A stretch of 21,334 nucleotides of DNA. Source: Planctomycetaceae bacterium UBA4732 (lineage in GTDB: Bacteria; Planctomycetota; Planctomycetia; Gemmatales; Gemmataceae). Shown here piece after piece: positions 4,740-9,248 of the stretch (its first letter is position 1; every line of letters starts with the position of its first letter). Made by a program: the position numbers and the translations under genes. Location: the NCBI GenBank assembly GCA_002404095.1, contig DHJA01000128.1:1-21334 (forward strand), in the 5' to 3' direction. The notes beneath the pieces were generated by a model that worked only from the letters and a program-made list of their open reading frames with translations, did no database searches and was not told where the DNA came from.

Positions 4740-5645
4740 TCAGCTGCCCTGGCACGCTTCAGGTACTCGGACCATATCGACCATCTTCACATCAAGTACC
4801 TTTCTGAGGCGTTCCAGGTCTTCAGGGAAAGCACCTTCCAAAATCAACACGGCTTCGGCAGAGTCATCGCTGTCCTCCACCGCCACGCAGGCTCGCAGGA
4901 CCGCACGATACTTGACGCACTGGAAAAGGCCCCGGACAATGTCCTCGCGCGGCGAGATGCGCGACTTCACCTCCACGGCCGTACGAACGGATGCGTGTAC
5001 GAAGAAGACATCGACGCTGTCGCCGGATGGGAGGGATTTCTCCTGTTCGCCTGGCCCCGCTCCAACGGGTAGGCCAACCACTCCTGGGTTCTCGGCAACG
5101 TACTTCTTCAACGCCTTGTGGAGATCCGTCTCGCCACCGGCACCATACCTCGCCGCCGCCTCGATGGTGGCCCTATACCCTGACGAACCAAAGCCAGACC
5201 ACCCATGCGGCGGCATGACCTTGTAATACCCTTGTGGAGCAAGAGTCACCGGCTTACCCTGGAGATTCCGCAGTGCGGACATTTCAAAGTCAGCAGGATC
5301 GACCCTGTTGATGACTAGGGCGTGCTTCCACGGCTCGAATTGGATGTTGTTCTTGTTCTCCTGCCATTCTCTTATCCATTTACTCGGTCTGACATCTCCA
5401 TATAATTCGGGTTTCTCGTAATGATCCGTCGAGAAAGGCACGACATCCTCGATGAAGGCTGCGTACTGGACCTTGTCTCCGCTTCCGCTTATGTGAATGA
5501 ACCCTTCTATCGGAAATGACTGAAAAGTCGCCTTCCGAATCGGAAACGTGACCTCAAAGTAAAGCTTCTGATGCTTCTGAAGATGACTAACAGCGTCATC
5601 CATGTTGCACTTCTTCGGATCGGCGCTAAACAAGATCGAATTCAT
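4740..5645 (-). CDS. Putative PD-(D/E)xK nuclease with N-terminal EVE/PUA-like region
   Basis: The C-terminal half carries the layout of a PD-(D/E)xK nuclease: a Glu in the first helix (ETDLHKALK, Glu 172), an Asp on a beta strand (DSVDVFF, Asp 212), the EVK motif (Glu 225, Lys 227), and then GLFQCVKYRA (239-248), resembling the Q-x3-Y motif that follows the active site in many restriction and repair enzymes. Residues about 28-145 form a beta-rich region (YFEVTFPIRK, GDKVQYAAFIEDVVPF, SKW, HALVINRV) that resembles an EVE/PUA-like modified-base-reading fold; that part is inference. Together these suggest a modification-dependent restriction endonuclease. A ribosome site (AGGAGA, eight bases before the ATG) lies inside the 44-aa ORF, whose stop overlaps this start. 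It is the last gene of a tight three-gene cassette, with more AT-rich sequence than its neighbours. Confidence 0.65.
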   Translation of the reverse strand: MNSILFSADPKKCNMDDAVSHLQKHQKLYFEVTFPIRKATFQSFPIEGFIHISGSGDKVQYAAFIEDVVPFSTDHYEKPELYGDVRPSKWIREWQENKNNIQFEPWKHALVINRVDPADFEMSALRNLQGKPVTLAPQGYYKVMPPHGWSGFGSSGYRATIEAAARYGAGGETDLHKALKKYVAENPGVVGLPVGAGPGEQEKSLPSGDSVDVFFVHASVRTAVEVKSRISPREDIVRGLFQCVKYRAVLRACVAVEDSDDSAEAVLILEGAFPEDLERLRKVLDVKMVDMVRVPEACQGS

Positions 5646-5776
5646 TTTGCACTCTCCTGTGGGCGTATTGTGGAAACAGTGTGAGTTTCTTTAGCAAGGT
5701 CAGCCGCGAACTGCCGATTCGCCAAAATGAACCAACGCCATTTGCCCTCCTCAATATAGGTAGTTTTATGCTTCAT
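5642..5776 (-). CDS. Small ORF, 44 aa, between two cassette genes
   Basis: This short frame runs from an ATG six bases after the stop of the 198-aa gene. It ends at a TGA that overlaps the ATG of the nuclease-like gene (ATGA). Spacing on both sides is what a real operon member would show. The peptide begins MKHKTTYIEEGKWRWFIL and is charged, with an aromatic patch; no family is recognised. Against it, its own ribosome site is weak (it could be reached by coupling). Also, a strong GAGGAGG inside it precedes an out-of-frame ATG at 5741 that would give only a 13-aa peptide. It could instead be a leader or a translation-coupling device. Confidence 0.5.
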   Translation of the reverse strand: MKHKTTYIEEGKWRWFILANRQFAADLAKETHTVSTIRPQESAK

Positions 5777-5782
5777 TAATGG

Positions 5783-6379
5783 TCAGTCTTCCCAATCACG
5801 TAGCACGATTGAGCCTGCTGGAATACCCTCGCGACAGATAGCCTCGCCAAGAACCCGCCACTTGTAATGCGGTGCTGCCTCTACCCCCGCCATGTAGATC
5901 CCGTCGCCGAGTGCTTTCGCCTCAACCGTCGGGATGTCGCGTTGCCTGGTGTTGCGGTTGTTTAGCTCGTACCTTGTCCCCACGGCGTCGATCACCTTGG
6001 CTGCGTCCATGTAGCCAGCCCAGAGGCGCAGCGCAATGGTAATCCTTGTCAACAAATCCGGAACGTCGTGCATATGACGCCCGCTAACCTGTGCAACCGG
6101 GCTTGCCGGTAGCACTCGCTGAAGTGCTCTGGTTACTTCCTGAATCTGTGGGGTCAGGTCGTATGGGTCCACAGCACTCGCCGCTTGCACCGGCGTGACC
6201 TGCCCATTTATCAAGGGGTCGTCAATTTCTTGAAGAAACCTAGCTCTCCGCTCGTTCGCTTCACGAAGCGTGCCGCCCATGAGGGACGCCGGCAGCACCA
6301 GCCCGTGCCCAATGAGATTCAAGCCTGTCTGTCTTGCGAGCTCCATAGTTGGATCGTCGATCCTCGCCGGCGTGCTCAT
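5783..6379 (-). CDS. Hypothetical protein, 198 aa, first gene of the nuclease cassette
   Basis: No domain is recognised. The protein looks soluble and mixed alpha/beta. The N-terminal half is helical (LREANERRARFLQEID; TPQIQEVTRALQRVL), there is a His/Asp patch (SGRHMHDVPDLL, about residues 101-112), and a conserved-looking C-terminus holds TVEAKALGDGIYMAG and PHYKWRVLGEAI. There is no signal peptide. The ATG at 6379 follows a good AAGGAG ribosome site at eight bases. Its stop is six bases before the 44-aa ORF, so all three genes are probably one transcript. By position it could be a regulator, specificity or immunity partner of the nuclease; nothing in the sequence decides this. Confidence 0.65.
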   Translation of the reverse strand: MSTPARIDDPTMELARQTGLNLIGHGLVLPASLMGGTLREANERRARFLQEIDDPLINGQVTPVQAASAVDPYDLTPQIQEVTRALQRVLPASPVAQVSGRHMHDVPDLLTRITIALRLWAGYMDAAKVIDAVGTRYELNNRNTRQRDIPTVEAKALGDGIYMAGVEAAPHYKWRVLGEAICREGIPAGSIVLRDWED

Positions 6380-6937: not shown

Positions 6938-7627
6938 TCACTCCAACTCAAATCGCAGTAACCGGCAGGCAATCTTCCCATTATAGAGCGGTATTTGCGC
7001 CGCAGGTCGCAGCCCAATCGCGTCCGCCAGCATCGGGTTGCCCGTGAACACGAACGCGGTCCAGCCCTTGCACCGCTGCGCGAAGACTTCGCCGAGCGAC
7101 TTATACAGCGGAATAAGGTCTGTTTCTTCGCCAATACGTTCGCCGTAGGGCGGGTTACACAGAATCACACCCGGCGGCCCTTCCGGCGGTCGGAAGTCGC
7201 GCACGTCGCGCTTATCAAAGCGCAGCAGACGGCCGATGCCGGCCGCGCGGGCGTTGTCGATGGCGAACGCCACCGCGTCGCCGCGCAGGTCCGAGCCGAG
7301 GATCGGCGCCGGCAGCGTTCGACCCACGCCGCGCCGCGCCTCGTCGCGCAGAGCCGTCCACAATTGCACGTCGTAGTCCATCCAACCCTGAAAGCCGAAG
7401 CGTTTGCGCGTCAGGCCGGGCGGCCGGCGCAGCGCCATCCAAGCCGCTTCTATCGGTAATACGCCTGAGCCACATAGCGGATCGACAAAGGGCGTTTCGT
7501 GCCTCCAGCCGGTCATCAGGATCAGGGCGGCCGCCAGAGATTCGTTGAGCGGCGCCTTGGTGAGAATCGGCCGGTAGCCGCGCTTGTGCAGCGATTTCCA
7601 GGCGTTAGGCAAGCCCCTCGGCGTCAT
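6938..7627 (-). CDS. RlmL-type 23S rRNA guanine-N2 methyltransferase, N-terminally truncated
   Basis: This is the S-adenosylmethionine-dependent methyltransferase domain of the RlmL/YcbY/Trm14 class, which modifies a guanine of 23S rRNA. SLHKRGYR (residues 12-19) and KAPLNESLAAALI (24-36) lead into the AdoMet motif DPLCGSGVLPIEAA (49-62). GSDLRGDAV (111-119) follows, then the catalytic motif CNPPYGER (157-164). Complete family members carry a THUMP domain of roughly 150 residues before SLHKRGYR. Here it is absent: from about base 7594 leftward in the protein, the frame reads antisense through the XylR gene, so residues 1-9 and the ATG are accidental. The C-terminal RlmK half of the E. coli fusion is also absent, which is normal outside proteobacteria. 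The gene is probably inactive, or its front lies elsewhere. Confidence 0.85.
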   Translation of the reverse strand: MTPRGLPNAWKSLHKRGYRPILTKAPLNESLAAALILMTGWRHETPFVDPLCGSGVLPIEAAWMALRRPPGLTRKRFGFQGWMDYDVQLWTALRDEARRGVGRTLPAPILGSDLRGDAVAFAIDNARAAGIGRLLRFDKRDVRDFRPPEGPPGVILCNPPYGERIGEETDLIPLYKSLGEVFAQRCKGWTAFVFTGNPMLADAIGLRPAAQIPLYNGKIACRLLRFELE

Positions 7628-8315
7628 GGCATGTAACGACGTTCGCGGCCAGCAAGTATTGGACGCGTGTCAGCGCAGCGGCATTTGTGTGCCGGATGAG
7701 GTTGCCGTGGTCGGCGTGGACAACGATGAAGTGTTGTGCGAACTGTGCAATCCGCCGCTCTCCAGCGTTGTGCCGAACCCGCAACGCATCGGTTATGAAG
7801 CGGCCGCGCTCCTTGCCCAGCTGATGGCCGGCTCCGCACCGGACCCGGAGGAAATGCTGATTGAACCCGTCGGCGTGACGACCCGGCAATCCAGCGACGT
7901 GCTGGCCATCGACAATCCGCAGATCGCCGCCGCTATTCGCCATATCCGGGAACATGCTTGTCGCGGCCTGTCGGTGCCGGAGTTGTTGAAGTATGTGCCG
8001 CTTTCGCGGACGGTTCTGGAACGACAGTTTCGCAAGTACCTGGGCCGGTCGCCGCAGGCCGAGATTCGCGCCGTACAGCTGAAACGCGCCCGCGAACTCC
8101 TGGCGAAGACGGATATGGGCCTGGCGCACATCGCGCGGCTGGTGGGGTTTGAACACCCTGAATATCTGAGCGTGGTATTCAAGAAACCAGGGGCACAGAA
8201 AGGCCAGGGCAAGTGGCCCGAAAGCGAGATTGACCGCGCGACCAAGATAATGGATGAGTACTTCAAGAGAAAAAAACAAGCCGCCGAAGCCAGCGATGGG
8301 AACCAACAGTCATGA
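7584..8315 (+). CDS. XylR-family (LacI/AraC hybrid) regulator fragment with a foreign C-terminus
   Basis: Residues about 5-105 match the C-lobe of a LacI-type sugar-binding domain as found in XylR (KPLGVMACNDVRGQQVL, VPDEVAVVGVDND). Residues about 113-200 are an AraC-type double helix-turn-helix (AAIRHIREHACRGLSVPELL ... LAHIARLVGFEHPEYLSVVF). A full XylR is about 390 aa; the N-lobe is missing and the first codons are antisense RlmL, so the nominal start is artificial and no ribosome site supports it. After FKK (about base 8184) the expected GxTPxxYR ending is replaced by an unrelated Lys/Glu-rich tail. That tail ends in an ATGA overlap with the next gene. The frame is thus a fragment with a second join at its 3' end. 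Native ligand and targets are unknown. Confidence 0.75.
   Translation: MCSDFQALGKPLGVMACNDVRGQQVLDACQRSGICVPDEVAVVGVDNDEVLCELCNPPLSSVVPNPQRIGYEAAALLAQLMAGSAPDPEEMLIEPVGVTTRQSSDVLAIDNPQIAAAIRHIREHACRGLSVPELLKYVPLSRTVLERQFRKYLGRSPQAEIRAVQLKRARELLAKTDMGLAHIARLVGFEHPEYLSVVFKKPGAQKGQGKWPESEIDRATKIMDEYFKRKKQAAEASDGNQQS
7592..7604. other. Head-to-head junction of two 5'-truncated genes
   Basis: Recognisable RlmL homology (minus strand) stops at Ser 12 of its frame, base 7594. Recognisable XylR homology (plus strand) starts at the FQALGKPLGVMACND segment, about base 7596-7614. The two conserved genes therefore meet within roughly 20 bases and each lacks its whole N-terminal domain. This is a rearrangement breakpoint or an assembly join, not a gene boundary. 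Confidence 0.7.
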
Positions 8316-8743
8316 CAAAAACACTTGTCGAGCGCTACGTCGAAGATCCTGATCATATGCGACTGTTCCAACAGGAACGCGCGATTTACGAAGCGACCGA
8401 ACTGCTCGAATCCACGATGGCCGAACTGGAGGTGACTCGCACCGACCTTGCCAAGCTGCTGGGCAAATCGAAAGGTTGGATAACTCAGCTGCTTGACGGG
8501 GAATCCAACAAGACGATTCGTACCGTTGCCGACGCATTTGCCGTTCTCGGGCGCGAATACTGCTCATTTCAGCGCCCAATCCGCATTGGGAACCAATCGC
8601 CGCACGTAGCTTCCGCGCGTGTAACGCCCAGCGCAGGGGCATCAACCCGACAGGACATTGACCAAGATGTGCATGTCCTCAAAATGTATAGGACAGGCCG
8701 GTCTCCAGCGACCTCTGTCATAAGAATGCAAGCGAATGAGTAA
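8312..8743 (+). CDS. XRE/Cro-CI type helix-turn-helix protein, 143 aa
   Basis: A small DNA-binding protein. Residues about 20-85 contain a leading helix (LFQQERAIYEATELL) and the helix-turn-helix core TRTDLAKLLGKSKGWITQLL, followed by NKTIRTVADAFAVLG, typical of Cro/CI-like repressors and HigA-type antitoxins. The C-terminal 55 residues are polar and show no domain. The start overlaps the preceding frame by ATGA, and its end overlaps the DUF6941-like gene by eight bases, so these are translationally coupled. It likely autoregulates this small operon. Whether it is an antitoxin or an ordinary regulator is open. Confidence 0.75.
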   Translation: MTKTLVERYVEDPDHMRLFQQERAIYEATELLESTMAELEVTRTDLAKLLGKSKGWITQLLDGESNKTIRTVADAFAVLGREYCSFQRPIRIGNQSPHVASARVTPSAGASTRQDIDQDVHVLKMYRTGRSPATSVIRMQANE

Positions 8744-9248
8744 GATGCCTAATCACAAGAACCTATCAGAGAAGAAAACAGCAGGCCCGTATCTGGCCGC
8801 AGCGATCTTCTGTGAAACGATCATAGAGGACAAGCAGGATAATGTGCTAAGCGCCATACGCATAATCGACACCTTCACTATGACGCTTGCCGCTTCCACA
8901 CCGCCGGATGTTCCGTCAGAGAAGAACCGCCTTCCAGTCAATGTGAATGGTTTGCTCATCTTCAAGACGGGGAGTTCGACCAAGAAAACCCACGCACTGC
9001 GTATCGTCATGCAATCGCCATCGGGAAAGCGGGGGAAGGTTCTTGAAGAGACGATCCCTTTTCCGCCGGAGCCGCAAGCTAGCGCGAATGTCCGTTTAGC
9101 AACCACAATTGCCGTAAAGGAAGGCGGACTCTTCTGGATGGACGTTTTTCTGGACACTAAGCGACTCGCCCGTATGCCGCTCATGATCCATATTCAACGG
9201 CAGGAACTGGCTCCCCATTCGCCCATCAAGTCCGACGCCACGTCTTAG
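8736..9248 (+). CDS. DUF6941-like protein, 170 aa
   Basis: A soluble, beta-rich protein of unknown function. PYLAAAIFCETIIEDKQDNVLSAIRIID (start of the conserved part, about residue 18) and the closing GGLFWMDVFLDTKRLARMPL (about 129-148) match what I recall of the DUF6941 family, in which short proteins repeat an 'FCE...DGVLSxIRIxD' and '..DVxLDGxLLxRxPL' layout. No signal peptide, membrane segment or catalytic motif is seen. It overlaps the XRE-type gene by eight bases, so the two are expressed together and probably act together. Met 4 (MPNHK) is an alternative start. Confidence 0.6.
   Translation: MSKMPNHKNLSEKKTAGPYLAAAIFCETIIEDKQDNVLSAIRIIDTFTMTLAASTPPDVPSEKNRLPVNVNGLLIFKTGSSTKKTHALRIVMQSPSGKRGKVLEETIPFPPEPQASANVRLATTIAVKEGGLFWMDVFLDTKRLARMPLMIHIQRQELAPHSPIKSDATS

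Follow-up and report, generated by a model that had tools for sequence, protein, structure and literature searches.

The stretch of DNA analysed here, called the window, comprises the 21,334 nucleotides of contig DHJA01000128.1 from Planctomycetaceae bacterium UBA4732 (Gemmataceae). Its minus strand carries three successive frames encoding 198, 44 and 301 amino acids (aa), the last of which is a two-domain protein and the main subject of this report (Table 1). All three frames begin with ATG and are arranged as in the preliminary description, which had been made from the sequence alone: the 198-aa and 44-aa frames are 6 bases apart, and an ATGA (5645-5642) links the 44-aa and 301-aa frames. 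The 198-aa and 301-aa genes are taken to be real because homologues exist, and together with a Shine-Dalgarno-like AAGGAG or AGGAG about 8 nt ahead of each ATG, this makes the two frames more than chance. The 44-aa frame was rejected as a gene: an ATG frame of 40 codons or more occurred in 7.0% of 20,000 Markov-1 sequences matching the spacer in length and composition, its GC content at third codon positions (GC3) is 0.477 compared to 0.645 and 0.652 in its neighbours, and no clear ribosome site was seen by eye upstream of it. The AT-rich patch mentioned earlier is real but mild, as its GC content (0.555) is below the contig mean (0.597, standard deviation 0.035) but is equalled or undercut in 11.7% of segments of the same size.

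Table 1. Features of the 301-aa gene and of the frames preceding it
Feature	Coordinates	Strand	Basis and remarks
301-aa two-domain gene	4740..5645	-	Homologues and predicted folds; proposed modification-dependent restriction enzyme, PUA-like reader and PD-(D/E)xK nuclease
N-domain, residues 1-152	5190..5645	-	Homologues, predicted PUA-superfamily fold; F-S-A-x-P (6-10), Q138-x-Y140
Nuclease module, residues 156-301	4743..5180	-	PD-(D/E)xK core: E172, D212, E225-x-K227, Q242-x3-Y246
AGGAG, Shine-Dalgarno-like, 8 nt upstream of the 301-aa gene ATG	5654..5658	-	Read from sequence
198-aa gene, uncharacterised family, upstream neighbour of the 301-aa gene	5783..6379	-	Homologues
44-aa frame, probably no gene, inside the 137-bp spacer between the 198-aa and 301-aa genes	5642..5776	-	Frame list, GC3 and simulated spacers

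A PD-(D/E)xK nuclease fold was predicted with high confidence for the C-terminal half of the 301-aa protein. The residues named earlier for the E...D...ExK order (Glu172, Asp212, Glu225 and Lys227) and the FQCVKY motif (241-246) are at the positions first assigned to them, and the E...D...ExK and Q-x3-Y pattern is invariant in 116 of 116 nuclease relatives among the matches listed (homologue counts for this protein cover the 120 listed of 404 homologues). The preliminary description would have given up its nuclease assignment for a fold without a nuclease core; no such fold was obtained, as structure prediction placed the conserved residues on the common PD-(D/E)xK core. The best VIA-align matches of the nuclease model were a repair endonuclease and EndoMS, both DNA enzymes; viral endonucleases that cut RNA and belong to the same superfamily were also among its structural matches. 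At the N-terminal side of this module, 111 of the 116 relatives listed carry one other domain, three a second kind and one yet another, and the remaining one is short. The main family of the nuclease (P0014, P0017, P0079 and others in our numbering of database proteins), with a length of about 284 aa, is large and unnamed and may be of a restriction type. Its N-terminal domain may resemble the ATL/MGMT-like DNA-binding domain of alkyltransferase-like proteins.

Residues 1-158 of the 301-aa protein matched no Pfam family at the cut-off, EVE included. The best AF2 model of this N-domain had a predicted local distance difference test score of 76.8, the remaining models ranging from 62.3 to 39.0. 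The Foldseek matches of the best model were headed by a Zymomonas ASCH protein (E = 2e-4) and included several small proteins from structural genomics as well as PD-T4-3 (CMoRE), an enzyme specific for 5-hydroxymethylcytosine, which ranked 12th (E = 0.02). VIA-align scored AF2351 at 8.0, ZmASCH at 7.7, Atu2648 (which we take to be an EVE protein) at 7.5, human THYN1 with 5-methylcytosine DNA at 6.8, the McrB N-domain of T. gammatolerans at 6.3 and many YTH domains at 6 to 7; the absence of an SRA chain among the 50 VIA matches listed excludes nothing. The PDB entries 1zce and 2vld are presumably EVE and NucS, respectively. The N-domain (residues 1-150) likely belongs to the PUA superfamily, the predicted fold being of moderate confidence and PUA-like as far as the model can tell.

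The position of the N-domain within this superfamily was examined by profile and motif comparisons with 21 of 25 EVE and 18 of 25 ASCH loci, the others having been excluded before running. Its profile matched neither EVE nor ASCH in hhalign, in which the ASCH-EVE positive control failed likewise. An EVE-like N-terminal motif, defined after both sets had been viewed and therefore only a hint, was present in 8 of 8 N-domains, 16 of 21 EVE domains, 0 of 18 ASCH domains and 8 of 499 background pieces, and might tilt the N-domain toward EVE. Near the end of the N-domain, Tyr140 is found in all eight members and Gln138 in seven. In EVE domains, strand 1 is flanked by an additional strand that lies downstream of the core (PMC7897488). 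The literature, searched by words and not by sequence, yielded no paper naming the N-domain.

The strongest argument for a modification-dependent enzyme is domain swapping. The N-domain is common to only six database proteins at E <= 0.001, in a search that finds only relatives sharing short exact words, and one further locus (L002) came from scanning genome contigs. In BLAST comparisons of the 301-aa protein with the fetched set, six proteins aligned on the N-terminal side only, the alignments ending at residues 146 to 162, and 114 aligned on the C-terminal side, starting at 154 to 171; the alignments of P0006 and P0017 start at 137 and 105, and neither matches the whole N-domain. Because relatives align with one half only and in different pairings, the two halves are separately inherited, mobile units, and the pairing of the N-domain with this PD-(D/E)xK module, whose catalytic motif is intact, is seen solely in the window gene. 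In P0121, the partner of the N-domain is an HNH nuclease that matches VcaM4I (E = 8.5e-19), the phmmer match to VcaM4I being confined to the HNH part, and P0003 has a Pfam HNH identical in kind to that of P0121. The HNH nuclease of P0001 matches TagI (E = 6.6e-16) and EcoKMcrA (E = 1.9e-4), a PLD nuclease (E = 1.8e-6) precedes the N-domain in P0027, and the L002 gene, which stops early, combines the N-domain with NucS_C (E = 5.8e-13). P0122 continues into a stretch with weak Hjc and Tox-REase-9 matches, and the 166-aa P0002, from a contig of 1036 bases, stops after the N-domain. VcaM4I (PMC7897488) and TagI (PMC6212794) are established modification-dependent enzymes; in homologues, the N-domain occupies the place of the EVE domain of the former and of the SRA domain of the latter, ahead of the same kinds of HNH. 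The earlier suggestion of a modified-base reader is supported as regards predicted fold and position, and the N-domain is a putative reader of such bases.

Base composition was also considered. GC content within the 301-aa gene is 0.491 in the N-domain and 0.605 in the nuclease (GC3 0.605 versus 0.687), with a change point at codon 103 that is reached by 0.2% of 2,000 codon shuffles, and 0 of 8 other genes stood out. A recent reader swap was not deduced from these values, as the change point is away from the domain junction, GC3 is similar and amino-acid make-up may explain the difference; they are not used as evidence.

With a probability of roughly 0.7, the 301-aa protein is a solitary type IV (modification-dependent) restriction endonuclease that acts as a single protein, needs no nucleoside triphosphate and carries an as yet unnamed PUA-like reader. 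As in type IV enzymes, a reader-type domain, here a presumed one for modified bases, is fused to a nuclease in one chain. The N-terminal domain would work by base flipping, capturing a modified base of incoming DNA (from a phage or plasmid) in a pocket, and the PD-(D/E)xK module would then cut the DNA nearby through E172, D212, E225, K227 and metal ions, probably as a dimer. We infer the binding of a modified base, DNA and not RNA as the target, dimerisation and a function in phage defence.

Among known systems, VcaM4I (EVE-HNH) also consists of an N-terminal PUA-superfamily domain (147 residues), a linker and a C-terminal nuclease (PMC7897488), and its HNH type is the one present in P0121, but it differs from the PD-(D/E)xK type of the window protein. 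Its base-site residues Gln128, which fills the stack gap, and Tyr130, which stacks on the flipped base (PMC7897488), resemble Q138-x-Y140 of the N-domain and may correspond to them. TagI is related through P0001, which combines the N-domain with a TagI-like HNH, but itself has an SRA reader and an HNH nuclease (PMC6212794). Predicted EVE-PD(D/E)XK type IV enzymes (PMC7641849) have the reader and nuclease classes predicted for the window protein, whose N-domain is, however, not recognised as EVE by Pfam. CMoRE (PD-T4-3), whose structure ranked 12th with the N-domain model, is likewise a single-protein type IV enzyme, but with a GIY-YIG nuclease and a C-terminal reader (PMC12923530).

The distribution of the two halves is patchy. 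The N-domain was found in 1 of 397 genomes of the class, namely the window's own, and the nuclease half in 5 of 392 genomes of the phylum, own included; the other four phylum matches are one clear relative (L007), two distant ones (L009 and L010) and one judged by frame reading to be chance (L008). The whole 301-aa protein had two non-own matches in the 95 family genomes, one to the nuclease half only and one (L012) judged spurious. A weak N-domain match at L005 (E = 2.5e-4) was dropped, as its frame is not gene-like. No N-domain was found in viral contigs, the window protein matched none of 50,697 phage records, and plasmid matches (five records) were on the nuclease side only. The distant relative at L009 (904-1875) has a sub-threshold NucS_C match and, in its N-terminal part, a sub-threshold EVE match, and is perhaps another reader-nuclease fusion.

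The preliminary description had proposed the 198-aa and 44-aa proteins as partners of the nuclease. The 198-aa protein has no Pfam family at the cut-off and belongs to a family of 22 database proteins, one of which (P0144) is labelled MarR by its source. Beyond the window's own genome, this family was found in none of the 392 phylum, 95 family and 397 class genomes (overlapping sets, with up to 8 candidates scored per genome in the 392 and 397 sets and 35 in the 95 set) and in no viral contig. Its profile had no match at 72 loci from contigs other than the window's, some of them flanked by as little as 1.5 kb. The 198-aa and 301-aa genes are thus both rare, and a second instance of linkage, from which to judge whether the three genes travel together, was not found. 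Joint action of the nuclease with the 198-aa and 44-aa products in a three-gene defence system would fit the common strand, the short spacing and the ATGA overlap. It would also fit the result that neither the 198-aa gene nor the N-domain turned up in the other relatives searched, as if the two had been acquired at once. Such a system is nevertheless quite improbable, given a 44-aa frame near chance and devoid of coding signal and the lack of any second example of linkage, and the 198-aa gene was rejected as a shown partner. An unlikely alternative in a different direction is a NucS/EndoMS-like nuclease for the cell's own damaged or mismatched DNA and not for restriction, as suggested by the best structural matches of the nuclease and by the fusion of one homologous N-domain to NucS_C. 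A housekeeping repair gene would be widespread, however, contrary to the patchy occurrence described above, and the partners of the N-domain include HNH modules of known modification-dependent enzymes. NucS/EndoMS is a mismatch repair enzyme and has an N-domain other than that of the window protein.

The PUA-like domain might also read a modified base in tRNA or phage RNA, which would make the protein an RNA-directed nuclease. YTH and EVE domains are mostly tied to modified RNA bases (PMC7897488), and an ASCH protein was the first Foldseek match of the N-domain, but DNA enzymes head the VIA matches of the nuclease, and the HNH partners of the N-domain are of kinds known from DNA-cutting enzymes, which leaves this reading only a slight chance. 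An ordinary type II restriction enzyme whose methyltransferase has been lost or is located apart is very improbable, although one nuclease relative belongs to an EcoRII/C5-methylase/Vsr cluster, at viral locus L020, and another is flanked by restriction endonuclease and methyltransferase genes. The L020 gene bears the other N-domain, and no cognate methyltransferase was recognised among the 19 window proteins scanned with Pfam, which include only a UPF0020 protein resembling rRNA methyltransferases.

For the proposed type IV enzyme, it is possible but doubtful that the N-domain forms a new reader branch of the PUA superfamily, apart from EVE, SRA, YTH and ASCH, which moves as a unit among three nuclease superfamilies and five or more kinds of module (this PD-(D/E)xK, NucS_C, VcaM4I-like HNH, TagI-like HNH and PLD) and reads a modification outside the range of known readers. 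If the proposal is true, an unnamed reader family joins the type IV restriction toolbox. The occurrence of one rare domain on HNH, PLD, NucS-type and PD-(D/E)xK modules points to a reader that sets the target and a cutter that is interchangeable, and new readers would be useful for the mapping of modified bases.

A defence neighbourhood, also suggested in the preliminary description, was found in part of a small sample: three of the eight inspected loci of nuclease relatives have defence genes close by, a proportion that has no baseline. The relative on a Rhizobium plasmid is near restriction endonuclease, methyltransferase and Shedu genes and sits between the first two, that on a Chryseobacterium plasmid is near two Abi genes, and that on viral contig L020 is near EcoRII, C5-methylase and Vsr genes. 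No evident defence genes were seen at the Falsirhodobacter locus and at L015, L016, L018 and L022, the last four inspected by eye; the sample excludes L013, L014, L017, L019, the short-flank genome loci and the Methylobacterium and Lactiplantibacillus plasmid places. L002, the only N-domain relative with flanking DNA, adjoins a PemK toxin/MazE antitoxin pair and a resolvase. At L020 (2973-8318), the nuclease-family gene follows the EcoRII, C5-methylase and Vsr genes, and its frame diverges from those of its relatives near the catalytic site.

In the window itself, PADLOC assigned none of the three frames to a family at E up to 10. Two of 10 further window proteins had matches, namely an ABC protein, for which the match was judged to be a generic ATPase match, and a weak one at 8312-8743. 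According to Pfam, the neighbours among the 19 window proteins include an ABC transporter ATPase, an acyl-CoA ligase/acyltransferase, small unnamed proteins, a UPF0020 methyltransferase piece and a regulator piece, and the contig bears planctomycete-type PSD/PSCyt and DUF1552 genes, which make a planctomycete host probable. The UPF0020 (RlmL-like) methyltransferase gene (minus strand, 7627-6938) and a XylR/AraC-like regulator gene (plus strand, from 7584) overlap head to head at 7584-7627. The match of the regulator is limited to the later portion of its first domain, and both genes look N-terminally shortened, which suggests a rearrangement or an assembly misjoin. A second AT-rich gene pair, at 8312-9248, encodes a helix-turn-helix protein with a weak PADLOC match (PDC-M64B/C, E = 1.8e-4), followed by a protein with a sub-threshold DUF6941 match, and is a possible candidate defence pair.
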